From Candidatus Latescibacterota bacterium (GTDB lineage: Bacteria > JAAXHH01 > JACQVL01): 29,907 bases of DNA. Location: positions 1 to 29,907 of the forward strand of contig JACQVL010000038.1 in NCBI GenBank assembly GCA_016209865.1, read 5' to 3'. The stretch's first letter is position 1. Each line of letters starts with the position of its first letter. The notes beneath the pieces are model-generated. The model was given only the letters and a program-made list of their open reading frames with translations, ran no database searches and had not been told where the DNA came from. The translations under genes and the position numbers were made by a program. This document shows positions 3-29,655 of the stretch, piece after piece.

Positions 3-107
3 ATTTTGGATTTTGGATTTTAGATTTTGGATTATTCAACCCACACCAGGGCTGAAGACGCGAAACGACCTCCATCAATCCAAAATCCAAAATCTAAAAT
101 CTAAAAT
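3..107. repeat. Inverted pair of ATTTTGG heptamer arrays
   Basis: Positions 3-33 hold four tandem copies of the 7-bp word ATTTTGG (one is ATTTTAG). Positions 80-107 hold four copies of the complementary word CCAAAAT/CTAAAAT. The two arrays face each other across about 46 bp, so a transcript could fold into a long AT-rich stem. The right arm ends 3 bp from the skp stop codon, so the pair may act as a 3'-end structure for the operon. The repeats and inversion are seen directly; the terminator-like role is inference. Confidence 0.85.
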
Positions 108-110
108 GTT

Positions 111-629
111 TCACTTCACTTCTTTCTGCAACTCCTCCAACACTCGTCCGGTCAGGTCGGACCCCTTCACAGGGTCGACATAGATGAGCGCGCTCGAATC
201 GAACACGTAGGTGTAGTTCTCAGTCTTTGCGAGCGTCGAGACGATGCCGAAAATCTTCTCCTGGAGGGGCTTGAGGAGCGTCTGTTCTTTCTGAGCCAGT
301 TCCTGCTGGGTCGACTGGATGTACTGGAGCAGGTCCTGTTCTTTCCGGTCGATCACCTGTTCGTCTTCCTTCCGCTTTTCCTCTGTCATCATCAACTTGC
401 GGGCCTCGTATTTCTGTTTGAGGTCATCGACCTCTTCCCGCATCACGCGGACTTTATCCTGGGACTCTTTCACCGCTTTGTCAAACTGCACCTGGATATC
501 TTTGAACCCTTTATACGTCTGCTGGATCTTCTCCAGGTCGATGTATCCCACTTTGATTGTCTGCGCGAACGCGGGCGAGATCATCAGGCAGCAAGTCAGG
601 GAACAGAGGAACAAGGACTTCTTCACCAT
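111..629 (-). CDS. skp: Periplasmic chaperone Skp/OmpH family
   Basis: A 172-residue protein of the OmpH/Skp family, periplasmic holdases that keep unfolded outer-membrane proteins soluble on the way to the BAM complex. The N-terminus is a classic Sec signal peptide: MVKK, a hydrophobic core, then SPAFA before the mature QTIKVGYIDLEKI. That VGYIDLEKI strand followed by a long charged coiled coil (about residues 45-130, rich in Lys/Glu/Gln) is the family pattern, and the length fits. ATG at 629 was chosen over upstream in-frame codons because it begins the signal peptide and has AGGAGG 8 nt upstream. It lies 157 nt after bamA on the same strand, the usual bamA-skp pairing, and is the last gene of the envelope operon. 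Heptamer repeats follow its stop. Confidence 0.9.
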   Translation of the reverse strand: MVKKSLFLCSLTCCLMISPAFAQTIKVGYIDLEKIQQTYKGFKDIQVQFDKAVKESQDKVRVMREEVDDLKQKYEARKLMMTEEKRKEDEQVIDRKEQDLLQYIQSTQQELAQKEQTLLKPLQEKIFGIVSTLAKTENYTYVFDSSALIYVDPVKGSDLTGRVLEELQKEVK

Positions 630-744
630 TGAAGCATCCTCCTGGAAAGAGCAACGGCTCTGTGTGGTCGTCCGCTGAAAGGGCAACCCCATCGGGTTGC
701 CTCGATCTCCCCACGCCTCAGGTCGGACAGACCGGAGCGGGGCG

Positions 745-783
745 GATCAGTGCCATCTGTCTTGCTCGATCAGTGTCATCCGT
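745..783. repeat. Short direct repeat between bamA and skp
   Basis: Two 16-bp copies, GATCAGTGCCATCTGT (745-760) and GATCAGTGTCATCCGT (768-783), differ at two positions and sit 23 bp apart in the 157-nt bamA-skp gap. No promoter or gene was recognised in the gap. Function unknown. Confidence 0.6.
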
Positions 784-786
784 GAT

Positions 787-3195
787 TCAGAAGATCTGGC
801 CGAGTTGGAAATGCGTGTTCCATCCACTCCGGCGACTGGTCGCTCTGAGGTAAGGATCGGAGGGGGGGTCGAAGCCGTACCCGAAGTCAAACCCGAACAC
901 CCCGACCAGGGGCATGACCGCCCGGAACCCGACGCCGACGGCTTTTTTGAGGACTTTGGGGTTGAGGGTCGTCTGTCCAACCCGATCCCAGGCGTTCCCG
1001 GCTTCCGCGAACGCGATCGCGTAGAGCGGGCTGGTCGATTTCCGCTGGCTGACGATCGGAATCTGATACTCGGCCGTGAGGATCAGCATGCTGCTCCCCC
1101 CGATTCGCGAGCTCCCGATCAGGGCACCGGTTGAATCATTGATCGAGATGTACGGCCCGATGGAGTTGTTCCCGTACCCGCGAATCACCCCGTCAAAGCT
1201 GATCCCGCCCGGGAAAAACCGCTCATTGAAGGGCGCCTGCCGTCTGGACAGGGGATTGTTGATGAGCGCGTACTTGCTCCTGAACGAGATCGACGTGCCG
1301 GAGAAGGAGGGAACGTAGACTTCCGACGTGTAGACCTGGCGGAGGAATTCAACATCCCCGCCCAGTCCGGCTAAGGTCACGGATACCCCGTGCCGCGACC
1401 CGGCAGTGGCGAACTGGGGAAAATCCCGGCTGTCCCGGTAGAGGGACATCGAGACGCTGCTCGTCAACCCTCCGGTCGCCTCCAGGTCGAGCCGCTGCCG
1501 AACGAGTTCAGGCCGCGTCTCCGGGTTGCCCGGGTAGTAGGCGGCGCTGAACCCCGTGTATGTCAGGTTGGCCAGCCGGTAGCCGCTCGTCAACCGGAAG
1601 TATGAGTCCGGCCACTTGAGCCGGCGACCCGTTTGCAGCCCGAACCCCGTCTCCTTGATCCGAAATTCACCGAACCAGTACCGGACCGTCCTGAACAGGT
1701 CGAGTCCGGCGCTCGTCGGGCTGTCGAACAGCCAGGGCTCGATAAACCCGACCTGGATGGAATTCCGCCGCGACCCGAATTCCCACCCGAAGTTGATCGT
1801 CTGGCCGTTGCCCATGAAGTTGGGAATGACGATCCCGATCGTCCCGACCAGCCCGTCCAGTCCGCTGTACCCGGCCCCGGCGTTGGCCGTCCCGGTCGGT
1901 TTTTCCTGAACCTGAAACCCGATATCCACATCCCCATTCGGCGTCGGGTTGATATCAGGCAAGACGTCCTGAAAGTAGTTGAGCTGGAAAATCTCGCGTT
2001 GACTCCGCAGCAGGGCAGAGCGTTTGAACACCTGACCGGGCTTGAGGACGATCTCCCGCCGGATGACCTTATCCTTCGTCTTCGTGTTCCCGGCGATGTT
2101 GATCCGATGGACGCGGGCCGGCTCCCCTTCCGTGATGATGACCGCCACGTTCAGGGTATCCCCCTGCGGCTGTTCCTTCGCGTAGGGAGTGGCGTAGAGA
2201 TACCCTTGTTCCCCGTACAATTCAAACAACTTGTTGATGCTCTCGTTGTATTTCTCTTCGTTCAGGACGTCGCCCGACTTGAGGGTGAACTGCCTGGCGA
2301 GCTGTTCAGCGGTGAAGAAGCTGTTGCCCTCGAACGTGACCGTCCCCAACCACCACTGCCGTCCCTCGGACACCGCGATTTTCCAGAACATCTTTTCCTT
2401 CGACTCGCTAAACCAGATGGAGTCCGCCAGCACCTTCGCATCCCGGAACCCATTCTTCTTGTAGAGTGTGATGACCTTGTCGAGCGCTTCCTGGATGCGC
2501 TCGCGCCGGAGGTCGCCGGTCTTCCAGAACACTTCCTTCTCGTCTTTCCCCTTTTTCTTCAGCGCCTTCTTGATCTTGTCATCCGGGAGCGTCTGATTGC
2601 CCTCGATGACGATATCCCCCAGTTTGACTTTCTTCCCTTCATCGATCGCCAGCTTCAAGGTCGCGTTATTCCCCGACACCTCCACTTGATCGGTGATCGA
2701 AGCAAGCAGGTACCCTTTTTCTTTGTACAACTTCAGGAGCTTGTCCCGGTTCATCTTTCGCCGGTAGGGGCTGACAGCCTGTCCCTGGAAGATCGTCACC
2801 TCACGCTCCAGGTCTTTCGTCCCGATGCGTTTGTTCCCGGTGATCTCGACATGGTCGAGCAGGGGGTATTCTTTCACCGCGATCGTGACGACGAGGCCCT
2901 GATCCTGGCGCGCGGCCAGCACCCGCACGTCGGAGAACATGCCGAGCCGGTAGAGCTGGCGGATGCTCTCCGCCACGTCGTTGCGGGTGAGCTTATTGCC
3001 CGGCTTCAGCCGGGTCACCGACCGAATCAGGCTCGCGTCCGCGTTCCGGTTGCCGGTGACGAGGACCTCCGTCATCGTGAGGTCCGGCGCCGGGGCCTGG
3101 GTCCCCTGGCCCCTGGCGGGCCTCGTCCCGGCCAGCACGGCGAGGATGAGGAGCACAGGCAGAGAGAGGAGGGATCGAGCAAGGAGACGCTTCAT
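787..3195 (-). CDS. bamA: Outer membrane protein assembly factor BamA
   Basis: The core of the BAM complex, which folds and inserts beta-barrel proteins into the outer membrane. The protein of 802 residues starts with a signal peptide (MKRLLARSLLS, hydrophobic core, then RPARGQG). Five POTRA domains follow over roughly residues 35-400, recognisable by repeated VEITGNKRI-, IVIEGNQTL- and INIAGNTKT-type strands. The Omp85 barrel includes the conserved lid-loop motif as VIRGYGNNS and ends in a C-terminal Phe, as expected for a beta-signal. Length is typical. ATG at 3195 starts the signal peptide; its Shine-Dalgarno is weak (GAGAG), and an ATG at 3216 in the same frame is possible. It lies 109 nt after clpC and upstream of skp, probably cotranscribed with both. 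Confidence 0.95.
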   Translation of the reverse strand: MKRLLARSLLSLPVLLILAVLAGTRPARGQGTQAPAPDLTMTEVLVTGNRNADASLIRSVTRLKPGNKLTRNDVAESIRQLYRLGMFSDVRVLAARQDQGLVVTIAVKEYPLLDHVEITGNKRIGTKDLEREVTIFQGQAVSPYRRKMNRDKLLKLYKEKGYLLASITDQVEVSGNNATLKLAIDEGKKVKLGDIVIEGNQTLPDDKIKKALKKKGKDEKEVFWKTGDLRRERIQEALDKVITLYKKNGFRDAKVLADSIWFSESKEKMFWKIAVSEGRQWWLGTVTFEGNSFFTAEQLARQFTLKSGDVLNEEKYNESINKLFELYGEQGYLYATPYAKEQPQGDTLNVAVIITEGEPARVHRINIAGNTKTKDKVIRREIVLKPGQVFKRSALLRSQREIFQLNYFQDVLPDINPTPNGDVDIGFQVQEKPTGTANAGAGYSGLDGLVGTIGIVIPNFMGNGQTINFGWEFGSRRNSIQVGFIEPWLFDSPTSAGLDLFRTVRYWFGEFRIKETGFGLQTGRRLKWPDSYFRLTSGYRLANLTYTGFSAAYYPGNPETRPELVRQRLDLEATGGLTSSVSMSLYRDSRDFPQFATAGSRHGVSVTLAGLGGDVEFLRQVYTSEVYVPSFSGTSISFRSKYALINNPLSRRQAPFNERFFPGGISFDGVIRGYGNNSIGPYISINDSTGALIGSSRIGGSSMLILTAEYQIPIVSQRKSTSPLYAIAFAEAGNAWDRVGQTTLNPKVLKKAVGVGFRAVMPLVGVFGFDFGYGFDPPSDPYLRATSRRSGWNTHFQLGQIF

Positions 3196-3304
3196 GGCGA
3201 CAACTCTCAAGCTCATACAACACGTCCCGGCGAGGACGTCTCCTCTGGCCGGGACGGAGTCGTAGGGAACAACGATGCACGGGTCACGCACGCCGCATCA
3301 CGGG

Positions 3305-5785
<2,481 letters not shown>

Positions 5786-5848
5786 GGATTCCCTCCGTCA
5801 GAGCATCCTGCAGACGAGCGATCCTGGCTCGTGTATGAGAGTTGATCA

Positions 5849-12345: not shown

Positions 12346-13380
12346 CTATCCCCCAAACGTCCTGAACATTTCCTCCATCAACTCCACGTCCCGGAGCGAA
12401 TCCGCGCCCGACGACCGGGACTCCCGATCATGCAGGATGCACTCGATAAACTGTTCGTCCGCCCGCTTGAACCCCCAGTCCCAGATCGCCTGTGGCTGAG
12501 ACCGTTCCTGAATCTTCCCGGCTTTGTACACCTCCACCCGCGCCGGGACGTTCCGGAGGAGCGGGGACGGGGTATGCACCTCCACCCAGCCGTGCTGGAA
12601 GTAGACTTTGAATTCCTCATCCCAAAAATTCGCGGAGATCCCGCCCACTTCCAGCACTGCGTCGAACCCGTCCATCCCGAAGACGACCACTCGCGCCGGG
12701 CTGTTCAGGTCGGCGTACTTCACCGTCTTCACATCTCCGGCGAGATGACGGAGCAGGTTCACGTCGTGACAGTACACGTTGTTGAACCCGTAGAACGGGC
12801 CGATCCGCGCCTCCGGGAGTCCGGCGGGCGGGCGTCGGACGACCTCCGGGTACGGCTCGTCCGTCGTGATGTGCTTCCCGATGTTGCACACCCAGTCCCC
12901 CCCGAAGCAGTGGGCGCGGACGAGAGTGATCGGGCCGAGTTCGTTCGACGCCCGCAGGTCGTCGATCATCCGCTTGGCGACCTCCACGCCGGGGTCGTAC
13001 CGTTTCATGTACCCGATGACGAGCTTCACTCCGTTCCGCTTCGCCGTCTCGACCATCGCATGGGCGTCCTCGACGTTCGTCGCCATCGGCTTTTCCATGA
13101 ACACGTGCTTCCCGGCGTTCATCAGGTCGATGGCCACCGGCGCGTGCAGGTCGTCCGACGTGATCTCCGCCACCGCGTCGATCTCCGGGTCGTTGCAGAG
13201 GTCGAGGTGACTCTTGTACACTTTTGGGATACGGTACTTGTCCGCCACCTGGCGGGCGAGCCGCGGCCGCCGCTCGGCGAGCGCGACGACCTCGCAGGTG
13301 TCGAACGTGACGAAATTGGCCAGATGGGCGAGCTGTCCCATATACCCCGCGCCGACGAACCCTAAGCGAACTTTGTCCAC
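12346..13380 (-). CDS. Gfo/Idh/MocA family NAD(P)-dependent oxidoreductase
   Basis: A 344-residue oxidoreductase. The N-terminal Rossmann fold opens with VRLGFVGAGYMGQLAHL (GxGxxG), and the conserved EKP motif occurs as FMEKPMA near residue 95, where the lysine normally contacts substrate and cofactor. The C-terminal half (about 125-344) is the Gfo/Idh/MocA alpha/beta substrate domain, with GFNNVYCHDVNLLRHL holding likely catalytic Asp and His residues. These enzymes oxidise or reduce sugars, inositols and related polyols. The substrate cannot be read from sequence and I give no gene name. The start is GTG at 13380 with AAGGGGGG about 8 nt upstream. Heptamer repeats lie immediately upstream and an octamer array downstream. 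Confidence 0.88.
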   Translation of the reverse strand: MDKVRLGFVGAGYMGQLAHLANFVTFDTCEVVALAERRPRLARQVADKYRIPKVYKSHLDLCNDPEIDAVAEITSDDLHAPVAIDLMNAGKHVFMEKPMATNVEDAHAMVETAKRNGVKLVIGYMKRYDPGVEVAKRMIDDLRASNELGPITLVRAHCFGGDWVCNIGKHITTDEPYPEVVRRPPAGLPEARIGPFYGFNNVYCHDVNLLRHLAGDVKTVKYADLNSPARVVVFGMDGFDAVLEVGGISANFWDEEFKVYFQHGWVEVHTPSPLLRNVPARVEVYKAGKIQERSQPQAIWDWGFKRADEQFIECILHDRESRSSGADSLRDVELMEEMFRTFGG

Positions 13381-13400
13381 GATGACCCCCCTTTGAGAGG

Positions 13401-13517
13401 ATTTTGGATTTTAGATTTTGGATTGTGGATTAAAGCGGTATGCTACTCACCATGCCATGACTGATTTCCGCGTTTCGAGATGTTGCAATCCAAAATCCAA
13501 AATCCCCAATCCAAAAT
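13401..13517. repeat. Inverted pair of ATTTTGG/CCAAAAT heptamer arrays
   Basis: Positions 13401-13431 carry ATTTTGG, ATTTTAG, ATTTTGG, ATTGTGG. Positions 13490-13517 carry CCAAAAT, CCAAAAT, CCCCAAT, CCAAAAT. The arms face each other over about 58 bp between the oxidoreductase start and the radC stop. The last base of the right arm is also the last base of the radC TGA. The 13381-13516 gap holds no gene. Confidence 0.85.
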
Positions 13518-14215
13518 CAAATCAGCCCCTTACTCGCCAGACTCGTGAACGTGCGATGGCCGACGATGATGTGGTCGAGCACCCGGATGTCGATCATCCG
13601 TCCAGCTTCGACGAGCTGGGTAGTGATCTTCAGGTCGTCCTGGCTGGGCGTTGGATCTCCAGACGGGTGATTATGCACGAAAATCACGGCGGCTGCGGAT
13701 TCCAGGATGGCCGGTTTGAACACCTCGCGCGGATGGACGATGCTGGCGGTGAGCGACCCTTCCGAGACGGTCATCTCTTTGATCAGTTTGTTCCGGGCGT
13801 CTAAGAGGACGACTTTGAACACCTCCTTCTTCAAGTCGCGGAGGCGTGGGATAAAGTAGTTGGCCACTTCGGCGCTCGACCCGAACGCTACCCGCTCGAC
13901 ATCCGGGGCTTCGAGCCGCCGACCGACTTCGACGGCCGCCTTCACTTGCGCCGCCTTGACCGGCCCGATGCCCGGCACTTCACACAGCTCACTGATCTCT
14001 CGTCCGGCCGCGTGACGGAGGCCGCCGAACCGCTTCAGCAGATCGCGGGCGATGTCGAGCGCGTTCCGGCCGGTGGCCGCATCCCCGGTGCGGAGCAGGA
14101 TGGCCAGGAGTTCCGCGTCCGACAGCGTACCCGGCCCGCATTTGATCAGCTTCTCGCGCGGCCGGTCGTCTTCCGGCCAGTCCTTGATGGTGATGATCGA
14201 CTTCATCTCGGTCAT
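13517..14215 (-). CDS. radC: RadC family JAB/MPN-domain protein
   Basis: A 232-residue RadC-type protein. It has an N-terminal helix-hairpin-helix (about 78-95, CEVPGIGPVKAAQ), then a JAB1/MPN domain with the metal motif HNHPSGDPTPSQDD (His181, His183, Asp194). An earlier proposed role in DNA repair is disputed for this family; some members are carried on mobile elements, so the name is structural rather than functional. ATG at 14215 has GGAGG 5 nt upstream. A longer in-frame N-terminus reaching 14272 would be read from ATTTTGG repeat DNA and is unlikely to be translated. Arrays of that heptamer flank the gene on both sides. Confidence 0.9.
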   Translation of the reverse strand: MTEMKSIITIKDWPEDDRPREKLIKCGPGTLSDAELLAILLRTGDAATGRNALDIARDLLKRFGGLRHAAGREISELCEVPGIGPVKAAQVKAAVEVGRRLEAPDVERVAFGSSAEVANYFIPRLRDLKKEVFKVVLLDARNKLIKEMTVSEGSLTASIVHPREVFKPAILESAAAVIFVHNHPSGDPTPSQDDLKITTQLVEAGRMIDIRVLDHIIVGHRTFTSLASKGLI

Positions 14216-14229
14216 GGGAACCTCCACTG

Positions 14230-14260
14230 ATTTTGGATTTGCGATTGTGGATTTTGGATT
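14230..14260. repeat. ATTTTGG heptamer array upstream of radC
   Basis: The four units are ATTTTGG, ATTTGCG, ATTGTGG and ATTTTGG plus a partial unit, starting 15 bp upstream of the radC ATG. A degenerate complementary stretch (AACCCAAAATCC) follows at about 14271-14282, so this may be a decayed inverted pair. Confidence 0.75.
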
Positions 14261-14363
14261 GGAGAATAACAACCCAAAATCCTCTTGTGGAGGGAAATTG
14301 CAAGAATACTCCCCCTGACCGGATTAGTCTCAGGATGGCCGGAAAACCTCGACATCAGTCGCC

Positions 14364-14414
14364 CGCCGTTTCAACGGCTGGCGTCTTGACGGCCGCGAGG
14401 CCTCGCGCCCCTAC
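14364..14414. repeat. 51-bp stem-loop repeat, copy 1
   Basis: A 51-bp element beginning CGCCGTTTCAACGG and ending CGCCCCTAC. It matches 16498-16548 in the same orientation with 5 mismatches. Its first part can fold as CCGTT/AACGG and its end as CGCGAGG/CCTCGCG. It stops 7 bp before the target duplication of the insertion sequence. Confidence 0.85.
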
Positions 14415-14429
14415 TCGTCACTGTTTTTT

Positions 14430-15714
14430 GGTTCTTCAACGATTTTTACGCTAAGGGTTTGTTAGCGACATTCGAGCAAGACTCTCAGACGGAAGTGGTC
14501 AAAGTTGACAAAGCCAAAGGCGCGTCGGTTGATGGCTTTGATGATATTGTTGATCCCTTCCACCAGTCCGTTGGTGATGCGATGCACAAAGAAGTTTAGG
14601 ATAGAGGTGCGCCAGCGCTGCAGCGTCTTGACAAAGGTGTCCAGATAGCGATTGCCCAGCGCCTTCGCCTGGTCGATCCACTGGGAGAGCCACCAGTCGG
14701 CCTGGTCGGGACAGTCAAAGGTGTCGTACCAGCGGCGGAAGTCTTCCTTGAGTTGCCAGAGTTGCTCGACCTCGGGGAAGGCCTGGAACGCCTGCTCCAG
14801 GCGCGGTTGCTCATCGGGTGTCAACTCTTCTGGATGCTTGAGGAACAGCCAGCGCAGGCGCTTGAGGACGTCCTGATCCGGCTGCATGTGCCGTAAGGCC
14901 CGCCGAGCTTTGTCGATAGCCTCATGGAGTTGCCGCATCACATGGAAGCGATCAATCACGATGGTGGCATTCGGCAGCACGGCGGTCGCACTGTTGACAA
15001 AGCCATCCCACATATCACAACTGAACACCTCGATGGCTTGGCAGAACGCGGGGCCTTGTTGCTGCAGGGAGGCGATCACGGCGGCTTGAGTGCGCTCGGG
15101 CAACAACTCGATGACGCAGGCGCGCTTCAGATCGATCAGCACACAAGCCTAACTGTTCTGCCCCTTGCGCAACGCGATGTCATCGATGCCGAGCCAGCGT
15201 ACCTGATCCCCAGGTTCCACCTGGCGAGCGGCTTGGCGTTCATAGATGGCCTGGACGACCGGCCACGCCAGGTTTTCTAACACGGCCCCTTGGGCAAAGG
15301 CGGTCTTCTCACACCGAGCACACAGATCGACTTCGTAGCGCTGCGTGGTCGTCCGGTTCGGCTCAACAAAGGCAAAGCGCTCACTGAAATACCGCTCACA
15401 GTCCGGACAAGAGAATTGCCGTTCTTCCAAGTCCAGATACACGTCCCGTCCAGTGATCGGGAGGTCCCGAATCGTCCGCTGATAGTACTTTTTCACCTCC
15501 TTGGTCGGACGAAGACAATTGGGACAGAGCGCTTCCCCGAAGCGACTGCGGCAGTGCACCACGAACTGCTGCTCGGTCAGTTCGATGCCGGTGACCTCTA
15601 TCTCCGGCAGATTTAAGAGGGCTTCGAGCTCGATGGTCATAGAGCTAAAAGAGAGAACTTTGGACAATTCGGCAACCCTACAGACACTGTTTCCGCCAAA
15701 ATCTTAGAAGAACC
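14430..15714 (-). mobile_element. ISL3-family insertion sequence with 8-bp target duplication
   Basis: A 1285-bp element. The ends are imperfect inverted repeats: GGTTCTTCAACGATTTT inward from 14430, and GGTTCTTCTAAGATTTT inward from 15714 on the other strand. The flanks are identical octamers TGTTTTTT at 14422-14429 and 15715-15722, the 8-bp duplication typical of ISL3. Length and the single transposase fit the family. The right-hand duplication overlaps the last two bases of the antitoxin-like gene's TAA, so insertion left that reading frame intact. An exact duplication suggests a fairly recent insertion. Confidence 0.93.
14462..15640 (-). pseudogene. ISL3 family transposase, interrupted by an amber codon
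   Basis: A DDE transposase of about 393 codons. The N-terminal part contains zinc-finger cysteines (CPNC, CPDC, CARC) and the first catalytic Asp in WLGIDDIALRKG. A TAG at 15149-15151 follows GQNS and interrupts the frame. Without shift, ACVLIDLKRACVIELLPERT and the rest continue, with SCDMWDGF, VIDRFHVMRQL and the likely catalytic Glu in NGLVEGINNIIK. One substitution would restore the frame. The downstream part has no ATG start of its own. ATG at 15640 is the likely original start; a TTG at 15667 is in frame. It is probably inactive unless complemented in trans or suppressed. Confidence 0.92.
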
Positions 15715-15720: not shown

Positions 15721-15972
15721 TTAAACTCCCGCGCCTAATTCTCCCCCACCGTCATCACGGGAATCTCTGGTGCTCCGTCGTTGTCGAATCTGTTCAGTCA
15801 ACGTCTGAACATCCAGTTGATCGAGCCAACTATGGCGCTCGACCGAATAGTCTCCATGGCCAATTTCAAACTGTTGCAAGAAACGAACCATCCCCGCCGG
15901 GCCTAACTCACGAGCGAGCGCTTCTAAGCCAGCCAGACGAATCTGCTCTAACGTCCTGGTTTGTATGCTCAT
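15721..15972 (-). CDS. Small protein partnered with the PIN toxin, putative antitoxin
   Basis: An 83-residue hydrophilic protein that I do not assign to a named antitoxin class. The central stretch LARELGPAGMVRFLQQFEIG followed by HGDYSVERHSWLDQLD looks like the small partner proteins found beside PIN-domain genes in cyanobacteria and other bacteria. The N-terminus (MSIQTRTLEQIRLAGLEA) is predicted helical and the C-terminus is Arg/Asp/Gly-rich. Its ATG overlaps the PIN gene stop as ATGA, so the two are translationally coupled. The insertion sequence lies immediately after its stop. The antitoxin role is inferred from this pairing; unusually, it is the second gene of the pair. Confidence 0.65.
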   Translation of the reverse strand: MSIQTRTLEQIRLAGLEALARELGPAGMVRFLQQFEIGHGDYSVERHSWLDQLDVQTLTEQIRQRRSTRDSRDDGGGELGAGV

Positions 15973-16418
15973 TGCTCAACGACCTCCTTCAGCCATGTCA
16001 GAGGGTTTTCCACTCGCACGCGCAGTTGTCCTGAAAGACGAGCAGCCAGACGGAGGAGTCGGTCATCGGTCGTCAAGAACACGGCAGCGCCGCTCCTTTC
16101 TGAGCAGGCAACGTGGAGAGCATCAAAGGAGCGAAACCCCAAGTTTTCGAGTTCTTGAGCGCGTGCCTCCTCAGTCTGTTCGACGAGAACAGAGTGATGG
16201 ATAGAAGCTGTCAGCACCTTAATGCGAGCTCGCCGCTCTGGATCAGGGATGTGCTCGATTTCAAGGTCTAACGCTTCGCTTCCGATCCATTGCCATTCGC
16301 CGGATTCAACATGGGTCAAGATAAGAAGAATTGCTTCAGATTCAAGACGGATTCTGTCCTGGGTCTGATCGTCAAACGGCCTATTCAAGCAACATGCATC
16401 AAGGTAGATTTGAGTCAT
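15969..16418 (-). CDS. PIN-domain ribonuclease, VapC-like toxin
   Basis: A 149-residue PIN-domain protein, a Mg-dependent RNase fold used by VapC toxins. It opens with YLDACCLNRPFDDQTQDR, carrying the first metal-binding Asp (Asp7). Other likely metal ligands are Glu53, Asp99 (SFDALHVA) and Asp118/Asp119 (TTDDRLL). The DxCCLNRPFDDQ opening belongs to a PIN subgroup common in cyanobacteria and other environmental bacteria. The last codons overlap the downstream small gene. Order is toxin first, partner second, the reverse of classical vapBC. The ribosome-binding site is weak. Target RNA is unknown. Confidence 0.85.
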   Translation of the reverse strand: MTQIYLDACCLNRPFDDQTQDRIRLESEAILLILTHVESGEWQWIGSEALDLEIEHIPDPERRARIKVLTASIHHSVLVEQTEEARAQELENLGFRSFDALHVACSERSGAAVFLTTDDRLLRLAARLSGQLRVRVENPLTWLKEVVEQ

Positions 16419-16463
16419 TCTTTGGCGAACCCTGTCTTACCCATCATAACTCTGACCTGACCC

Positions 16464-16548
16464 CCAGCCCCGTTCACGGGGCTTCGTATATTCAGCACGC
16501 CGTTTCAACGGCGGGCGTCTTGACGGGCGCGATTCCTCACGCCCCTAC
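16464..16548. repeat. Composite stem-loop repeat, full copy
   Basis: This 85-bp element has two strong hairpins, GCCCCGT/ACGGGGC (16467-16482) and CGCCGTT/AACGGCG (about 16498-16513), then a segment ending CGCCCCTAC. Its 3' 51 bp match 14364-14414. Its 5' 50 or so bp match the reverse complement of 24798-24852. The 16419-16643 intergenic stretch contains this element and other repeats but no gene. Confidence 0.85.
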
Positions 16549-16564
16549 CTTCGCCCCCTGTCTT

Positions 16565-16643
16565 CACTCGTCACTCGTCCGCCCGCCCATGCATGGGCGG
16601 GCACTTCCTCCCGAATCCCGTACCCCGAATCCCGTACCCCGAG
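16565..16643. repeat. Heptamer arrays and perfect palindrome after the slipin gene
   Basis: 16565-16578 is CACTCGT twice. 16581-16602 is a perfect 22-bp palindrome centred on CCATGCATGG. 16610-16643 is CCCGAAT, CCCGTAC, CCCGAAT, CCCGTAC, CCCGAG. The last array abuts the slipin stop codon (16644-16646). The palindrome could end slipin transcription, but no T-run follows it. Confidence 0.85.
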
Positions 16644-17471
16644 CTAATCCGTCGCGTTCGGATGCTCCGGGGACGACGCCACTGCTGGTGGGGCAGCGTC
16701 GGCCATCTTCCGGAGGAACGGGGTGAACAGATCGATAGGCACGGGGAAGATCGTCGTCGAATTCTTCTCGGCCCCGACCTCGACGAGCGTCTGGAGGAAC
16801 CGGAGCTGGAGGGAGATCGGCTGGGCGCTCATCACCGCCGCCGCATGGGTGAGCCTCTCCGCCGCCTGGGCCTCCCCCTCCGCGGCGATCACCTTCGCCC
16901 GCCGCTCGCGCTCCGCCTCCGCCTGCTTCGCCATCGCCCGCTGCATCTCCGGCGGGAGGTCGACGTTCTTCACCACGACCGCCGTCACTTTGACCCCCCA
17001 CGGCTCTGTCTGCTGGTCGAGCAACACCTGCAGTTCATCGTTGATCTTCTCCCGGTTGGCCAGCAGGTCGTCGAGTTCCACCTGGCCTAACACGCTCCGG
17101 AGCGTCGTCTGGGCAAGCTGGAAGGTGGCGTAGAGAAAGTCCTCCACCTCGATGATCGCCCTCTCCGGGTCGATCACCCGGAAGTAGATCACCGCATTGA
17201 CCTTGATGGACACATTATCCCGCGTGATCACATCCTGGGACGGCACATCTTTGGCGATCGTCCGCAGGCTCACTTTGATCATCTTATCGACGATCGGGAT
17301 GAGGAGGACGATGCCGGGGCCGTTCCCCCCCACGATCCCAGTCGCTAAGCGTCCCAACCGGAAGATGACCGCCCGTTCGTACTCCCGGAGCACTTTCACC
17401 GCGCTGGACAGGACGAAAATACCCGCGATGACGATGATGAGCAGGTAGAGCGGTAACGGACCGAACATCAT
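16644..17471 (-). CDS. Slipin/stomatin SPFH-domain membrane protein
   Basis: A 275-residue member of the SPFH (stomatin/prohibitin) superfamily, membrane scaffold proteins that form ring-like oligomers. It has one N-terminal hydrophobic segment (about 5-25). The SPFH domain follows, from [14 protein letters not shown] through [13 protein letters not shown] and [19 protein letters not shown] to about residue 200. A charged coiled coil ([23 protein letters not shown]) and an Ile/Leu/Phe-rich tail complete it. The ATG at 17471 shares a base with the nfeD TAA (TAATG). A second ATG at 17468 is better spaced from the GGAGG inside the nfeD end. Coupling to nfeD is the standard nfeD-slipin pair, where the NfeD protease may cleave the slipin. 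Confidence 0.93.
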
Positions 17472-21857: not shown

Positions 21858-21947
21858 GATGAGGGCCTCCTGGAGGGAAGTAGACGGACGACAGCACGGG
21901 CGCAAGAGGTGGAGAGTGCGGCTTTGTTAAATGGCTTGTGATCTACC

Positions 21948-21975: not shown

Positions 21976-22051
21976 GAGGGATACCGATGGGCATCCATGC
22001 CAGTCTTACCCCGTTGGCGGCGATCCGTCTGGGACGACGTTGTACGCCGAA

Positions 22052-22519: not shown

Positions 22520-22620
22520 GAGCGACTCCGTGGTGGAAGGGGTGACGGGTTGATGGAGCCAAACGGTGGAATCTCCCTGCGTGTGGCCCGTGACGGTGGG
22601 GCGCGGGTTGAACGAGGGGA

Positions 22621-22893
22621 TCACACCAGCGGGGTCAGCGCTGCGACCGCCTCCTGTGACGGGACGACAGGGATGATCTCGAAGTCGATCAGATCGTGCC
22701 ACCGGGCGACCCACGGCTGGAAGCAGCGCGGATCATCACATTCCATCAGTTGAAAGCACCGATCGAGGTTCGCCTCGATCCAACTGTCGACATACTTCAA
22801 CCCGTCTGGCATCATGCGCCCGTGCTCCTGAAATCGCCGGTACACGGCCACCGCGTCACGGTTCTTGAATCGCTCAATGACCATGAACAGCAT
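22621..22893 (-). CDS. DUF3303 family small protein
   Basis: A 90-residue protein with the clear DUF3303 pattern: MLFMVIERFKNRDAVAVYRR, GRMMPDGLKYVDSWIEANLD, RCFQLMECDDPRCFQPWVAR and FEIIPVVPS. It probably adopts a dimeric alpha/beta-barrel (ferredoxin-like) fold; no biochemical role is established for the family. ATG at 22893 follows AAGGAG with 5-nt spacing, which settles the start against a longer in-frame extension to 23007 that overlaps the GNAT gene. It starts 35 nt after the GNAT stop. Confidence 0.88.
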   Translation of the reverse strand: MLFMVIERFKNRDAVAVYRRFQEHGRMMPDGLKYVDSWIEANLDRCFQLMECDDPRCFQPWVARWHDLIDFEIIPVVPSQEAVAALTPLV

Positions 22894-22928
22894 CTCATCT
22901 CCTTCCTCTTTCGCGCCATGGTAGACGA

Positions 22929-23627: not shown

Positions 23628-23685
23628 GGTTGCCTCCGGCCGTGGCAGGTTATCTCCTGAACAAAATGATAGGCAGCTCGACTCG

Positions 23686-24777: not shown

Positions 24778-24797
24778 GAAGAAAACTCCTTGATGAT

Positions 24798-24852
24798 CGC
24801 CCGCCGCTCAAGCGAGCGGGCTGACGGTACGAAGCCCCGTGAACGGGACTGG
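24798..24852. repeat. Composite stem-loop repeat, inverted partial copy
   Basis: The reverse complement reads CCAGTCCCGTTCACGGGGCT followed by TCGTACCGTCAGC and a GC-rich hairpin ending GGCGGGCG. It matches the first 50 or so bp of 16464-16548. It lies 20-75 bp upstream of the second oxidoreductase gene, inside its leader. Confidence 0.8.
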
Positions 24853-24908
24853 AGGGAGCCCCTGGACCCCTTGCTTCCGCGCTGTCATTCTCGCGTAAGC
24901 GGATATCC

Positions 24909-24937
24909 AATGTAGAGAATCCTCACCAGCCTGTCAA
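24909..24937 (-). promoter_or_regulatory. Promoter of the second oxidoreductase gene
   Basis: On the minus strand TTGACA (24932-24937), 17 bp, TACATT (24909-24914). The perfect -35 and ideal spacing make this a strong candidate. The transcript leader of about 125 nt includes the stem-loop repeat at 24798-24852. It diverges from the heme promoter 24 bp away. Confidence 0.75.
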
Positions 24938-24960
24938 TAGGAAGTCTCCCTCTATTTAGA

Positions 24961-24987
24961 TTGACAAGTCAGGTCTGATCGTCTAAT
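24961..24987 (+). promoter_or_regulatory. Promoter of the heme operon
   Basis: TTGACA (24961-24966) is followed by TCTAAT (24982-24987) at 15-bp spacing, or a poorer TAATTT at 17 bp. The -35 is perfect and the -10 compromise suggests moderate strength. Transcription would start near 24995, giving a leader of about 80 nt that contains the ATTCATC heptamer array. The 24778-25073 divergent gap holds the two promoters and repeats but no gene. Confidence 0.55.
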
Positions 24988-25021
24988 TTTTGCAATGGAC
25001 GTTGAACGAGGCACCATACCC

Positions 25022-25049
25022 ATTCATCATTCTGCATTCTTCATTCATC
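25022..25049. repeat. ATTCATC heptamer array in the heme operon leader
   Basis: Four tandem 7-bp units: ATTCATC, ATTCTGC, ATTCTTC, ATTCATC. They lie 25 bp upstream of the hemD-hemE start codon. An in-frame upstream TTG (24990) would translate this DNA, but it lacks a ribosome-binding site. Confidence 0.8.
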
Positions 25050-25073
25050 GTTGCCTTGCCACGGAGTCCCGAT

Positions 25074-27053
25074 ATGCCCGCCGGGTTCGACGGGTTGCAC
25101 GTGGTCGCGTTTGAAAGTCGCCGGGCCGAAGAGATGGGAGTCCTGATCGCCCGGCACGGGGGAAGACCTCTCGTCGCGCCGACGATGCGGGAAGTCCCTT
25201 TGCGCGAGATGCCCGACGCGCTGGCGTTCGCCCGGCGGCTGCTGAACGGCGAGGTGGATGTCGTCATCCTGCTCACCGGGGTGGGCACCCGGACCCTGGC
25301 TGCGGCGATCGACCAGGAATACCCGCGTGAGCGATGGGTCGAGGCGCTCCGGCGTGTGACCATTGTCGCGCGCGGGCCGAAGCCGGTCGCCGCCCTCCGG
25401 GAATTGGGACTCGCGCCCACGGTGACCGCGCCGGAACCGAACACCTGGCGGGAGCTCCTGGCGGCCCTGGACCAGAAGGTGCCCCTGCAGAGCCAGCGCG
25501 TCGCGGTGCAGGAATACGGGGAATCCAACCCCGATCTGTTGGAAGGCTTACGACAACGCGGGGCGGAGGTGACCGCCGTTCCGGTCTACCAGTGGGCGCT
25601 CCCTGAAGACCTGAAGCCGCTCAAATCGGCCATCCGTACGATCGTGGCGGGCGAGATCGATGCGGCCCTATTTACGAGCGCGAATCAAGTCAGGAATCTG
25701 TTCCAGGTGGCCGCCGACATGGGACTGGAACACGCCCTCCGTGATGCGTTCCGCCGGATGGCGGTCGGGTCGATCGGCCCGACCTGTTCGGACGCCCTGC
25801 GTACGCTGCGGGTGAGCGTCGAATTTGAGCCGGACCACGTTAAGATGGGAGACCTCGTCCGCGGCATCGCCCGTGCCAGCAAACGCCTCGTCGCCAAGAA
25901 ACGCGTCGCGGCAGACGCGGGAGTGGATACGACCGCCTGGCGGCGGGCGGACATGGTCTGGGCGGGCGCGGAGCGTCAGGCCTCGCTGACCGACTCAGTG
26001 TTCCTCCGTGCCTGCCGGCGTGAGCCGGTCCCGTATACCCCCATCTGGCTGCTGCGACAGGCGGGCCGGTATCAGCGCGAATACCGGGAACTCCGGGCGA
26101 AGGTGTCCTTCCTCGACCTCTGCAAGACTCCGGACCTCGCCGCAGAAGTGACCCTGATGGCCGTCGACCGGCTCGACGTGGACGCGGCCATCATCTTCTC
26201 GGACATCCTGCTCCTGCTCGAGCCGATGGGCATCGGCCTGGAATTCGCCAAAGGGGAAGGCCCGGTCATCCATCATCCGGTGCGGACGGGCGCGGCCGTC
26301 GACCAGCTCGCCGAGGTCGATCCCCAGGCGCTCGACTTCGTGTACGAGGCGATCCGTCTTACCCGTCGTGCCTTGTCGCCGTCTCTCCCCCTGATCGGGT
26401 TCGCCGGCGGGCCGTTCACGCTCGCTTCCTATGCGATCGAGGGGGGCGGGTCGCGCCATTATGCGCACACGAAAACGTTGATGTACCGCGACCCTGTCGC
26501 CTGGCATGCCCTGATGGAAAAACTCGCCCGCGCGGTGACCGGATACTTGAACGGCCAGATCGCGGCCGGAGCGCAGGCGGTGCAGATGTTCGACAGTTGG
26601 GTCGGCTGTCTCTCGCCGGACGACTACAGGGAATTCGTCCTGCCCCATTCCGGTTTTATTTTCTCCCATCTGACGCCGGGCGTCCCGGCGATTCATTTCG
26701 GCACGGACACCGCGACCCTGCTCGAACTCATGCGCGATGCGGGCGGAGATGTCATCGGCCTGGACTGGCGTGTCGACCTGGCCGAAGGATGGGCGCGCGT
26801 GGGCTATGACGCGGCCGTCCAGGGGAACCTGGACCCGGTCATCCTGTTCGCTCCCCCCGCCGAGATTCGTCGGCGGGCGAACGGCATCCTGGACAAAGCG
26901 GCGGGCCGGCCCGGACACATCTTCAACTTAGGACATGGGATTCTCCCGGAGACCCCGGAGGATAATGTGCTGGCGTTAGTTGACGCGGTGCATGAAAGGA
27001 GTGAAGAGTTAAGAGTGAAGAGTGAAGAGTGGAAAGGAGACGGCCGCTCGTGA
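25074..27053 (+). CDS. hemDE: HemD-HemE fusion: uroporphyrinogen-III synthase and decarboxylase
   Basis: A 659-residue protein joining two consecutive tetrapyrrole enzymes. Residues 1-265 are HemD, which cyclises hydroxymethylbilane to uroporphyrinogen III (FESRRAEEMGVLIARHGG, ILLTGVGTRTL, VQEYGESNPDLLEGL, FTSANQVRNLF). A 35-40-residue linker follows. Residues about 300-650 are HemE, which decarboxylates uroporphyrinogen III to coproporphyrinogen III. It has WLLRQAGRYQREYREL, the catalytic Asp near 377 in IFSDILLLLEP, FDSWVGCLSP and LGHGILPETPEDN. ATG at 25074 has GGAG 7 nt upstream. No stop or good ribosome-binding site separates the halves; an internal ATG at 25953 lacks a Shine-Dalgarno. 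The last 15 or so residues are encoded by a heptamer array. The TGA overlaps the hemH GTG start. Confidence 0.92.
   Translation: MPAGFDGLHVVAFESRRAEEMGVLIARHGGRPLVAPTMREVPLREMPDALAFARRLLNGEVDVVILLTGVGTRTLAAAIDQEYPRERWVEALRRVTIVARGPKPVAALRELGLAPTVTAPEPNTWRELLAALDQKVPLQSQRVAVQEYGESNPDLLEGLRQRGAEVTAVPVYQWALPEDLKPLKSAIRTIVAGEIDAALFTSANQVRNLFQVAADMGLEHALRDAFRRMAVGSIGPTCSDALRTLRVSVEFEPDHVKMGDLVRGIARASKRLVAKKRVAADAGVDTTAWRRADMVWAGAERQASLTDSVFLRACRREPVPYTPIWLLRQAGRYQREYRELRAKVSFLDLCKTPDLAAEVTLMAVDRLDVDAAIIFSDILLLLEPMGIGLEFAKGEGPVIHHPVRTGAAVDQLAEVDPQALDFVYEAIRLTRRALSPSLPLIGFAGGPFTLASYAIEGGGSRHYAHTKTLMYRDPVAWHALMEKLARAVTGYLNGQIAAGAQAVQMFDSWVGCLSPDDYREFVLPHSGFIFSHLTPGVPAIHFGTDTATLLELMRDAGGDVIGLDWRVDLAEGWARVGYDAAVQGNLDPVILFAPPAEIRRRANGILDKAAGRPGHIFNLGHGILPETPEDNVLALVDAVHERSEELRVKSEEWKGDGRS
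27000..27034. repeat. AGTGAAG heptamer array inside the hemE 3' end
   Basis: Five units: AGTGAAG, AGTTAAG, AGTGAAG, AGTGAAG, AGTGGAA. The array is in the coding frame and gives the peptide SEELRVKSEEWK, itself periodic at 7 residues (21 bp, three repeat units). It ends just before the hemH ribosome-binding site AAAGGAG. Confidence 0.88.
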
Positions 27054-27973
27054 CTTACGACGCCGCCCTCATGATCGCCTTCGGCGGACCGGAACGACCG
27101 GCGGACATCCGGCCGTTCCTGGCCAATGTGACGTGGGGCCGGCCGATCCCGCCGGCACGGGTTGAAGAGGTGGCGCACCACTACGAACGCATCGGGGGGA
27201 AGTCGCCCCTGAATGACATCACGTTCCGGCAGGCCCATGCACTGGAGGCGCAGTTGCGTGCTGACGACTGCTCACTCCCGGTGTACGTCGGGATGCGGAA
27301 CTGGCATCCGTTCCTGTCGGAGACGGCCCGCCAGATGCATGCGGACGGCCGGCGGCGGGCGGTGGGCCTCATCATGGCGGCGCACCAGTGCGACGCGAGC
27401 TGGGAGAAATACCAGCGGAACGTGACGGACGCGCTGACAGAGGAAGGGGTTGCGCTCGACGTCGTGTACACGCCGCCCGTGTTCGACCATCCGTTGTTTA
27501 TCGACGCGGTCGCGGGGCGCGTGGAACGATGCCTGGCACGCCTACCCGAAGTGGAACGAGCGACAACCCCGCTCGTGTTCACCGCGCACAGCATTCCGGC
27601 GGAGATGGCGGCGGCGTCCCCGTATGAACAGCAGCTCACGACCTCTGCCCGGCTTGTTGCGGAGCGCTTGCGCCATGCGCCGTGGCAGCTCGCCTACCAG
27701 AGCCGCAGCGGACGGCCGCAAGACCCCTGGCTGGAGCCGGACGTGTGTGCGACGATTCGAGACCTGGCCGCGCACGGCGTCCGCGCTGCGGTCGTCGTGC
27801 CCGTCGGCTTTGTGTGCGATCATGTCGAAGTGCTGTACGACCTCGACATCGAAGCGGCTGGCGTCGCGCGCGAGGTGGGCTTAACGATGCTCCGGACGGA
27901 GACGGTGAACGATGACCCACTCTTCATCGAGGCGTTAGCGGAGAATATAAAGGCAGTGACGAGTGACAAGTGA
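27050..27973 (+). CDS. hemH: Ferrochelatase, coproporphyrin type likely
   Basis: A 307-residue ferrochelatase that inserts Fe2+ into a porphyrin. Catalytic His180 lies in FTAHSIP and Glu260 in PVGFVCDHVEVLYDLD, matching Bacillus His183/Glu264. The N-terminus (YDAALMIAFGGPERPADIRP, then FLANVTWGR) and the LAYQSRSGRPQDPWLEPDV stretch closely resemble actinobacterial coproporphyrin ferrochelatases, which convert coproporphyrin III to coproheme. GTG at 27050 overlaps the hemE stop (GTGA) and has AAAGGAG 10 nt upstream. A GTG at 27029 is in frame but lies in repeat DNA. The last six residues (AVTSDK) and the TGA stop are read from an AGTGACG heptamer array. hemE-hemH-hemY is the Bacillus gene order. 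Confidence 0.93.
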   Translation: MTYDAALMIAFGGPERPADIRPFLANVTWGRPIPPARVEEVAHHYERIGGKSPLNDITFRQAHALEAQLRADDCSLPVYVGMRNWHPFLSETARQMHADGRRRAVGLIMAAHQCDASWEKYQRNVTDALTEEGVALDVVYTPPVFDHPLFIDAVAGRVERCLARLPEVERATTPLVFTAHSIPAEMAAASPYEQQLTTSARLVAERLRHAPWQLAYQSRSGRPQDPWLEPDVCATIRDLAAHGVRAAVVVPVGFVCDHVEVLYDLDIEAAGVAREVGLTMLRTETVNDDPLFIEALAENIKAVTSDK

Positions 27974-27982
27974 CGAGTGACG
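27955..27982. repeat. AGTGACG heptamer array across the hemH stop
   Basis: Four units: AGTGACG, AGTGACA, AGTGACG, AGTGACG. The hemH stop TGA (27971-27973) is inside the third unit. The 11-mer CAGTGACGAGT at its start recurs (reverse strand) at 14413-14423 and 23681-23691, both at gene 3' ends. Confidence 0.88.
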
Positions 27983-28025
27983 AGGAAAGACAGGGATCAG
28001 CTCCGAAGGGGCGAGAGATTCATAG

Positions 28026-28045
28026 CCCACGGCATAAGCCGTGGG
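28026..28045. repeat. Perfect hairpin before hemY
   Basis: CCCACGGCATAAGCCGTGGG folds into an 8-bp stem with an ATAA loop, ending 15 nt before the hemY ATG. The CCCACGG...CCGTGGG form preceded by TTCATAG resembles the terminal hairpins of IS200/IS605 elements, but no transposase is near. It could affect hemY translation. Confidence 0.7.
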
Positions 28046-28060
28046 ATGGAAAACTGGAAT

Positions 28061-29584
28061 ATGAACCGCGTCATCATCATCGGGGGCGGCATTACGGGCC
28101 TCAGCGCAGCGAACCGGCTGATCGAAGAACAGCAGGCCAGGCAGGTGCCGCTTGCGGTGACGCTCCTCGAAGGGAGTGACCGGTTAGGCGGGACGATCCA
28201 GACGCAGGAGGTCGACGGCTTCTTGATCGAGACCGGGCCGGACGCGTTCATCAGCACGAAGCCCTGGGCGCTCGCCCTGTGCACACGAATCGGACTGAGC
28301 GACCGCCTGATCCGGACGAACGAGACGTTCCGCCGCACGCATATCGTCCGAAAAGGCGCGCTGCTGCCCGTCCCGGAAGGCTTCCTGATGCTGGCCCCGA
28401 CGCGGTTCTGGCCGTTCGTCACCTCCCCTCTGTTCTCATGGCCGGGCAAGCTGCGAATGGCCCTTGACCTCGTCCTCCCGCGTGGCCCGCAGTGCGAGGA
28501 TGAAAGCCTCGGCTCATTCGTCACCCGCCGTCTCGGCCGCGAAGCCTTAGAGAGGATCGCCCAGCCGCTCGTCAGCGGTATCTACACCGCCGACCCGGAT
28601 GTCCTCAGCCTGCGGGCGACGATGCCGCGTTTTCTGGATATGGAGACGCAGCACCGGAGCATCATCACGGCGATGTGGCGGGAACAACGGACCGTGGCGC
28701 AGCGCACGCGGGATGGAACGAGCGGACGGAAGATAGCCGACAGCGGCGCACGGTACAGCCTGTTTGTGTCGTTCGACCGGGGGATGAAGACGCTGATCGA
28801 CACCCTGGCCGTCCGGCTGCCCGGCGGGGTGGCGCAACGCCAGAAGTCGGTCGCAACGGTTCGCCGGCGAGACGCCGCATGGGACGTTGTACTGTCCGAT
28901 GGGATGACCTTCCAGGCCGATGCGGTGCTGATCGCCGTCCCCGCCCATCGCGCCGCCGGGATGGTGCAGGAGCTGGACGCTGAGTTAGCCGCCGACCTGT
29001 CGGCCATTCCGTATGCCCCGTCGGTGGTCGTCAACCTGGCGTACCGCCGCCAGGACATCCCGCATCCGCTCGACGGGTTCGGGTTTGTCGTCCCCGCGAT
29101 CGAGCGACGAAGCCTGATCGCCTGTACGTTCAGTAGTGTCAAATTCGCCGGACGCGCGCCGGACGGGTGGGCGCTTCTGCGGGTGTTCATCGGCGGGACG
29201 ATGCAGGCGCACCTCTGCGAGCTGGACGACGAGGAACTGCTCCGCGCGGTGCGGAAAGACCTCCACGACCTCCTCGGCATCGAGGCCGCCCCACGGTTGA
29301 CGCTGATCGCGCGCCACCCGGCCTCGATGCCTCAGTATCCGGTCGGGCATCTGCAGCACGTCGCGCGGATTCAGGCGCGGGCCGCGCGGTACCCCGGCCT
29401 GGCGTTCATCGGCAATGCATACGGCGGGATCGGAATGCCGGACTGCGTTCATGCGGGGGAGACAGCGGCGGAGCAGGTGCTGGAGAGGGTAAAAGAGCGG
29501 GATACGGGATTCGGGGTACGGGGTACGGGAGGAAACTCGGGATTCGGGGTTAGGGGTTCGGGAAAACAAGGAGAGAAAAAATAA
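28061..29584 (+). CDS. hemY: FAD-dependent proto-/coproporphyrinogen oxidase HemY (CgoX)
   Basis: A 507-residue flavoprotein of the HemY/HemG (TIGR00562-like) family, which oxidises coproporphyrinogen III or protoporphyrinogen IX to the porphyrin. The N-terminal dinucleotide fold reads NRVIIIGGGITGLSAANRL, then LLEGSDRLGGTIQT and FLIETGPDAF. Its C-terminal FAD-binding end is YPGLAFIGNAYGGIGMPDCV. With a CpfC-like hemH, the coproporphyrin-dependent branch is likely, though a HemQ gene is not in the window. ATG at 28061 starts the flavin fold; a frame back to 27977 would translate repeat and hairpin DNA. Residues after about 480 (GFGVRGTGG...GFGVRGSGK) are encoded by a heptamer array and lie beyond the family's conserved end. 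Confidence 0.93.
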   Translation: MNRVIIIGGGITGLSAANRLIEEQQARQVPLAVTLLEGSDRLGGTIQTQEVDGFLIETGPDAFISTKPWALALCTRIGLSDRLIRTNETFRRTHIVRKGALLPVPEGFLMLAPTRFWPFVTSPLFSWPGKLRMALDLVLPRGPQCEDESLGSFVTRRLGREALERIAQPLVSGIYTADPDVLSLRATMPRFLDMETQHRSIITAMWREQRTVAQRTRDGTSGRKIADSGARYSLFVSFDRGMKTLIDTLAVRLPGGVAQRQKSVATVRRRDAAWDVVLSDGMTFQADAVLIAVPAHRAAGMVQELDAELAADLSAIPYAPSVVVNLAYRRQDIPHPLDGFGFVVPAIERRSLIACTFSSVKFAGRAPDGWALLRVFIGGTMQAHLCELDDEELLRAVRKDLHDLLGIEAAPRLTLIARHPASMPQYPVGHLQHVARIQARAARYPGLAFIGNAYGGIGMPDCVHAGETAAEQVLERVKERDTGFGVRGTGGNSGFGVRGSGKQGEKK

Positions 29585-29655
29585 GAGCGTATCAAAGGTC
29601 TTTTCAGGTGTTCACTTTCTGTCTTTCCCGAATCCCGTATCCCGAACCCCGAACC
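29499..29655. repeat. Inverted pair of GGGATTC/GGGGTAC heptamer arrays at the hemY end
   Basis: Left arm 29499-29562: GGGATAC, GGGATTC, GGGGTAC, GGGGTAC, a 12-bp interruption, then GGGATTC, GGGGTTA, GGGGTTC. This arm is coding for hemY. Right arm 29627-29655: CCCGAAT, CCCGTAT, CCCGAAC, CCCGAAC. The arms are complementary over about 65 bp of spacer containing the hemY stop. A further short hairpin GGGGTT/AACCCC (29660-29677) sits just past the tRNA 3' end and might terminate it. The 29585-29681 gap has no gene. Confidence 0.88.

Follow-up and report, generated by a model that had tools for sequence, protein, structure and literature searches.

Tandem heptamers known as short tandemly repeated repetitive (STRR) sequences were reportedly described by Mazel and coworkers in 1990 from the filamentous cyanobacteria Calothrix, Anabaena, and Nostoc. 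Repetitive extragenic palindromic (REP) sequences, together with REP doublets forming hairpins (REPINs) and bacterial interspersed mosaic elements (BIMEs), are short intergenic repeats that lie near gene 3′ ends, often as inverted pairs of fixed polarity. Three tandem heptanucleotides are cited for Calothrix (PMC4692102), and the same study reports GGGGA(C/T)T repeats in Nostoc PCC 7120 and GGGAATC repeats in Xanthomonas, the latter with a preference for four units, convergent inverted pairs, a position 0 to 50 bp from gene ends, and a link to quadruplexes (Rehm et al. 2015, PMC4692102). In marine Beggiatoaceae, a single word, TAACTGA, occurs in 2 to 6 copies, mostly just upstream of starts; related words seldom form repeats, and a single inverted repeat is described (MacGregor 2015, PMC4679880). 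Heptamer repeats have thus mostly been studied word by word and explained through the chemistry of the word, such as G-quadruplex formation or regulator binding. Here, we describe period-7 tandem arrays in a 29,907-nucleotide contig of a Candidatus Latescibacterota bacterium (JACQVL010000038.1, assembly GCA_016209865.1; hereafter, the window) and in a larger sample of the same genome. The arrays belong to the STRR-type heptamer repeats, with exact 7-bp units, many multicopy families, and a mostly intergenic location. The typical array is a discrete ∼31-bp unit placed at a gene edge, whether the gene encodes a protein or a tRNA, with its G-rich strand running outward. This one geometry is shared by at least ten words in a single genome and recurs in several phyla with largely different words; the cause therefore sets period, length, and polarity independently of the word.

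The sample comprised 722 kb read in stretches (60 loci plus the window), or 19% of a single draft assembly of 356 contigs that is 83% complete. Exact self-match, measured at each period across the 722 kb, revealed 228 period-7 arrays; in the window, arrays were called with Tandem Repeats Finder (TRF) and by direct reading. Periods were compared in the 367 kb sampled without regard to arrays, by counting runs with exact match over at least 1.5 periods and using order-2 Markov sequence as a control. Period 7 gave 38 runs against 0 in the control, which rejects chance or composition as the source of the arrays and bears out the enrichment of period 7 over periods 5 to 9 put forward in a preliminary description of the window; other periods were weak (runs/control, 35/26 for period 5, 12/3 for period 6, 3/0 for period 8, and 1/0 for period 9).

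The arrays fall into at least ten word families, besides rarer ones: W1, GGATTTT; W2, AGTGACG; W3, CGGGGTT; W4, GGTGGTC; W5, CAGGGGT; W6, AAGGACG; W7, GGATTGC; W8, AGTGAAG; W9, AATGATG; and W10, GGGCAGT. The words had been called locus-specific, but the same ones recur at dozens of loci, W1 in 55 arrays and W2 in 48 (part of the sample was picked for holding W1, so its density is inflated; the remaining words were unselected). Array length, the near constancy of which had been overlooked, peaks at 30 to 33 bp (111 of 228 arrays), or about 4.4 units, with a second peak at 24 bp. Each main family also prefers particular start and end phases, such that arrays read X(YX)n: (G)ATTTT...GATT for W1, AGT...AGT for W2, and CGGG...CGGG for W3. 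The DNA on both flanks is rich in A (about 45 to 65% at several positions, in a sample with a G+C content of 62%), and a common form is AAAAGC-array-AAAAG. Contigs end inside heptamer arrays at window positions 1-33 and in three further loci (L004, 3168-3187; L022, 1-32; L038, 12017-12039); the assembly is therefore probably interrupted by arrays, of which there are probably more than were counted.

Placement follows gene edges closely. Of the 228 arrays, 131 are no more than 50 bp away from the 3′ end of a gene, compared with 17 for random points and 38 for random intergenic points, in agreement with the 3′-end bias first noticed in the window. Predicted genes cover 85%, and 167 arrays are intergenic; of the other 61, 42 are no farther than 60 bp from the end of a predicted gene. 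The gene predictions come from a simple script based on codon scores, with exact stops and approximate starts. Gene ends can overlap arrays, as at hemE and hemH. Orientation was counted for arrays that lie no more than 25 bp from one neighboring gene and 40 bp or more from the second. At 3′ edges, 68 of 69 such arrays have the G-rich strand running outward from the gene (68:1), at 5′ edges 29 of 30 do (29:1), and so do 5 of 5 cases in divergent spacers. Genes for tRNA behave alike: of 35 that were read together with their flanking DNA in this genome, 6 have an array that starts 3 to 23 bp past the tRNA, all with the G-rich strand as sense (G-sense), and the 4 arrays within 25 bp upstream of a tRNA are all C-sense, that is, G-rich outward. 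These tRNA counts are small yet one-sided, and few tRNA arrays occur in the cyanobacterium G039. Because tRNA genes and 5′ edges follow the same outward-G rule, the cue is the gene edge, neither the stop codon nor translation. The original emphasis on stop codons thus captures a true enrichment but not what the arrays respond to. Arrays lying entirely 0 to 20 bp past a stop are G-sense by 68 to 3, and stop codons made by the arrays themselves are therefore not the cause of the bias. Nucleation of arrays from local sequence at the stop was also rejected, as residual periodicity is no different upstream (0.26) from downstream (0.28); an apparent 5-of-7 match to local sequence at one cyanobacterial junction was not general.

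The same geometry is found well beyond this genome. An exact 25-mer of W1 was matched in public genomes by at least 95 stretches, most of them cyanobacterial, and the matches listed further include Chloroflexi, Acidobacteria, Verrucomicrobia, Planctomycetes, Deltaproteobacteria, and Ignavibacteria. Public loci that bear W1 hold 308 period-7 arrays, against 32 of period 8 and 13 each of periods 6 and 9. Within 20 bp of a stop, a cyanobacteria-rich set has 50 G-sense arrays versus 4 at random and the other phyla have 25 versus 4.7, and C-sense arrays are at the random level in both. Arrays are patchy within the same order (G003, 0 in 127 kb; G011, 12 in 396 kb; G013, 12 in 116 kb, with partly different words). 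In G013 (L190-L195), arrays of period 8 are no fewer than those of period 7 (9 versus 8 over 116 kb), and some genomes may therefore not hold the period at 7.

At orthologous cyanobacterial junctions, the site is kept and the word changes between species. Across ten cyanobacterial genomes, the words just past the upstream gene of junction 1 are GGTGATT, GGGAATA, TTGGTAA, ATTTTAG, GGGTAAT, or GGGGATT; the number of TTGGTAA units differs in three relatives (about 1.7, 3, and 4), and two Nostoc genomes are without a heptamer array. At junction 2, the bases just past the stop are GGTGATT, GGTGTAG, or GGAATTG in three genomes, and three others have no array. The word is thus nearly free, with many families in one genome and, in cyanobacteria, sites that outlast their words; the STRR resemblance noted at the outset holds. 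Words other than W1 common to this genome and the other sets do not exceed a letter-shuffled null (1 versus 0.8, 3 versus 1.9, and 2 versus 1.5). Spread of the same words between phyla was accordingly rejected; W1 matches many phyla but was the search word. The preliminary description had preferred a common process to a single spreading sequence, and between phyla such a process is favored because the same junction has different words and words other than W1 are not shared beyond the null; inside the genome, spreading does occur.

Many arrays face each other in pairs. Neighboring arrays of opposite sign are G-first by 50 to 1 in this genome, 46 of them complementary, by 36:2 in the cyanobacteria-rich set, and by 22:7 in other phyla. 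Neighbors carry the same word in 33 of 40 cases within a spacer and in 7 of 28 across a gene, with 14% expected from family frequencies. The arms nevertheless appear independent: W1 arms are no better matched than shuffled partners of the same family (19 pairs, p = 0.39), and the 48 loops are largely unrelated, the exceptions being a recurring 28-bp palindrome and one similar pair of W2 loops. Copying of one arm from the other by template switching was rejected given the lack of covariation, although old events may have lost the signal. Insertion of a miniature inverted-repeat transposable element (MITE) or of any one complete inverted-repeat element was rejected as well, because arms do not covary, loops are mostly unrelated, and there is no target duplication. 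As separate observations on loops, the recurring palindrome (28 bp) has the form GGATTCCCGC-N-GCGGGAATGAC and is found in array loops of L004, L024, L026, L029, L031, L034, and L038; of its 31 occurrences, 19 are no more than 150 bp from a heptamer array, a distance that takes in just 8% of the sample, and we take it to be reminiscent of the Neisseria dRS3 element. In Sphaerospermopsis (L110, 486-625), a ∼140-bp sequence between facing GGATTTT arrays is multicopy in several cyanobacterial genomes, which makes it a MITE candidate inside a pair of heptamer arrays.

As to what generates the arrays and what they do, we infer an answer from these comparisons. The reading that we favor, at somewhat less than an even chance, is that the arrays are STRR-type heptamer repeats that colonize gene spacers and are copied as roughly 31-bp units. 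Within a genome, the ∼31-bp unit would be copied or re-made at gene edges and would spread one arm at a time and not as a transposon-like whole; arrays would be replaced over time, and period, length, and polarity would be set by the copying or repeat-adding process. The arrays would then be resident repeats of a REP-like kind that the genome tolerates, rather than sequence-specific regulatory sites. Several points weigh against this reading. The 83% complete assembly has no match to a Y1 transposase (PF01797, RAYT-type) and none to a reverse transcriptase (RVT_1, PF00078), which is also without a match in the array-bearing relatives G011 and G013; incompleteness leaves some room for a RAYT or reverse transcriptase generator gene. 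No target duplication is seen at the arrays, where flank repeats are without excess, and no copying event has been directly captured in this species. The near-absolute orientation exceeds what neutral repeats need unless the process imposes it, and the copying model leaves the period of 7 unexplained.

Facing same-word arrays can let the spacer fold into a long hairpin, and a hairpin element, acting as RNA or DNA to protect the ends of transcripts or to process or terminate them between genes, with selection on pairing and not on the word, is an unlikely but serious alternative to copying. Five facing pairs fold with z scores of −4.2 to −7.1; three inverted pairs in the window that had previously been overlooked score −7.1 (2-33/77-107), −5.3 (13399-13431/13487-13512), and −4.2 (29537-29562/29626-29658). 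Sharing of the word between facing arrays is what such a hairpin would require, and because different words can give the same hairpin, it also fits the freedom of the word. However, many arrays without a detectable partner follow the same edge rule, and many occupy spacers only a few bases long within gene strings, e.g., hemE-hemH-hemY. Neither the poor matching of paired arms, which do no better than shuffled partners, nor the G-first order, which hairpins alone do not require, is in its favor.

The order of the arms has led us to consider telomere-like scars, left where some activity extended DNA ends by about four G-rich heptamers and the ends were joined in spacers, with single arrays representing one-sided events. 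G-first pairs (50:1) with the same word on both sides are as in fused telomeres; independent arms and unrelated loops fit; X(YX)n phases are expected of a short template with repeated ends; and bacterial telomerase-like reverse transcriptases with A-B-A′ templates exist (DRT10, PMC12632851). DRT10 products, however, vary in unit length and are protein primed (PMC12632851), whereas the arrays here are always of period 7. In addition, this genome, G011, and G013 have no RVT_1 match (a noncoding RNA template was not sought), and targeting to gene edges needs a separate explanation. We consider such scars improbable, and we are slightly more doubtful still of the broader proposal that G-first facing arrays in many phyla are scars of a bacterial telomere-like process, in which an unrecognized activity with changing templates healed DNA ends by such additions and the healed ends were joined in spacers.

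Explanations tied to the chemistry or coding content of the word fare much worse. A G-quadruplex element, in which four G-tracts would account for four units, was proposed for GGGNATC repeats, for which circular dichroism data are published (PMC4692102), and W3 and W5 arrays here do have four G-tracts. Only 26 of 228 arrays contain four tracts of at least three G's, and the other 202 have a median length of 30 bp and are G-sense by 93:3 near stops. A quadruplex was therefore rejected as the general cause and is very improbable in that role, although it may still act in W3 and W5 arrays. Equally improbable is a device for translation or stopping, with stops in all three frames or with release or re-initiation of ribosomes, and so is the kind of translational binding site proposed for TAACTGA (PMC4679880). 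Many words hold TGA, TAG, or TAA, period 7 puts a stop in all three frames, and arrays begin within about 20 bp of stops, but common forms of W5, W6, and W7 have no stops on the G-rich strand and yet follow stop codons, and a translational cue was rejected as the general cause by tRNA genes and 5′ edges, which, with divergent spacers, follow the same rule. Least probable of all is selection by Rho, in which C-rich sense arrays past genes would act as rut sites such that G-sense arrays or C arms masked by a G arm survive: it accounts for the sense bias near stops, and Rho is present in this genome, G011, and G013, but it was rejected as the general cause because the bias is equally strong in cyanobacterial loci (the Rho RNA-binding domain was not found in eight cyanobacterial genomes) and extends to divergent spacers (5/5).

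The arrays of the window are collected in Table 1. Twelve had initially been listed there; nine clear period-7 arrays are confirmed (2-33, 77-107, and those beginning at 13399, 13487, 26999, 27955, 29498, 29537, and 29626); the entry 29499-29562 is actually two arrays split by AGGAAAC. A perfect 14-bp repeat occupies 16610-16642, i.e., two heptamers in alternation (CCCGAAT CCCGTAC). The others are weaker: 16564-16579 has only 2.3 copies, and 14232-14260 and 25021-25046 are degenerate but in register. That 29626-29658 follows a tRNA-Arg gene had gone unnoticed. By direct reading, a partial complement, CCCAAAATCC, follows the array at 14232-14260 at about 14273-14282. The W8 array forms the C-terminal tail of HemE, from about residue 670, the URO-D domain ending at 669. 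If the true start of hemD-hemE is downstream of the array at 25021-25046, the G-rich strand of that array faces away from the gene; the start codon is uncertain.

Table 1. Heptamer arrays and the tRNA gene adjoining one of them in the 29,907-nucleotide window
Feature	Coordinates	Strand	Context
W1 GGATTTT array	2..33	+	Far arm of inverted pair downstream of skp; contig starts here
W1 array	77..107	-	3 bp past skp stop (skp 111-692, minus); G-rich strand sense
W1 array	13399..13431	+	18 bp outside 5′ edge of gene 12346-13380 (minus); outward-G arm of pair
W1 array	13487..13512	-	4 bp past radC stop (radC 13517-14272, minus); faces 13399-13431 over spacer
Degenerate W1 array, in register	14232..14260	+	radC 5′ edge; outward-G
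Short AGTGACG (W2) array	16564..16579	-	Weak taken alone
Alternating GGGATTC/GGGGTAC (W3-type) array	16610..16642	-	Adjoins stop of SPFH/band-7 (slipin) gene 16644-17471 (minus); G-rich strand sense
Degenerate GATGAAT/GAAGAAT array, in register	25021..25046	-	Near 5′ edge of hemD-hemE fusion
AGTGAAG (W8) array	26999..27031	+	hemE 3′ edge
AGTGACG (W2) array	27955..27984	+	Spans hemH stop (TGA inside array) and 3-bp spacer to hemY
CGGGATT/CGGGGTA (W3) array	29498..29529	+	C-terminal end of hemY
Second W3 array	29537..29562	+	Ends 22 bp before hemY open reading frame end; pairs with 29626-29658
W3 array	29626..29658	-	24 bp past tRNA-Arg 3′ end (minus); G-rich strand sense to tRNA; faces hemY arrays
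tRNA-Arg (CCT)	29682..29756	-	Noncoding gene with array at 3′ edge

Other features of the window include a fusion of HemD (uroporphyrinogen-III synthase) and HemE (uroporphyrinogen decarboxylase) in a single open reading frame, 24990-27053. An ISL3-family transposase at 14462-15667 is split into two open reading frames, a zinc-ribbon part (15149-15667) and a DDE part (14462-15142), and is therefore probably a broken insertion sequence. A PIN-domain gene (15969-16418) overlaps a small upstream-type open reading frame of no assigned family (15721-15972), and the two (15721-16418) may form a toxin-antitoxin-type pair. Around the ISL3 and PIN-domain genes are two copies of a second interspersed repeat (14350-14440 and 16455-16550), with the form CGCCGTTTCAACGGC..GGCGTCTTGACGG..CGC..CGCCCCTAC.

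Set against the systems described so far, the arrays share with REP/REPIN elements a position near gene 3′ ends and frequent inverted pairs of fixed polarity but differ from those elements, which are palindromes and not heptamer arrays; here, there is no Y1 transposase match, and loops are not common to copies. They resemble the TAACTGA repeats (PMC4679880) as intergenic tandem heptamers beside genes, some running over gene ends, in distant phyla, but unlike those repeats they are multiword and include many facing pairs. With GGGNATC-type repeats they share the preference for four units and for the coding strand 0 to 50 bp past stops; like the GGGAATC and GGGGA(C/T)T repeats, the arrays lie on the coding strand past stops and the noncoding strand before starts and are rare between divergent genes (PMC4692102). 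One quadruplex-capable word type is involved there, whereas here there are at least ten words, mostly not quadruplex capable, with tRNA edges included. The open-access literature that we searched held no account of many mostly nonquadruplex words under one geometry within a genome and across phyla, tRNA genes included. The cyanobacterial STRR sequences share the 7-bp unit, several words per genome, and the intergenic location. The arrays here belong to another phylum, are tightly distributed near 31 bp, and commonly form facing same-word pairs, whereas those of cyanobacteria show more variation and are often longer; the cyanobacterial loci that we examined have the same outward-G placement and G-first pairs. 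An old cyanobacterial curiosity thereby becomes a testable question, namely, what makes repeats of exactly 7 bases and sets them G-outward at gene edges in this genome as in those of cyanobacteria.

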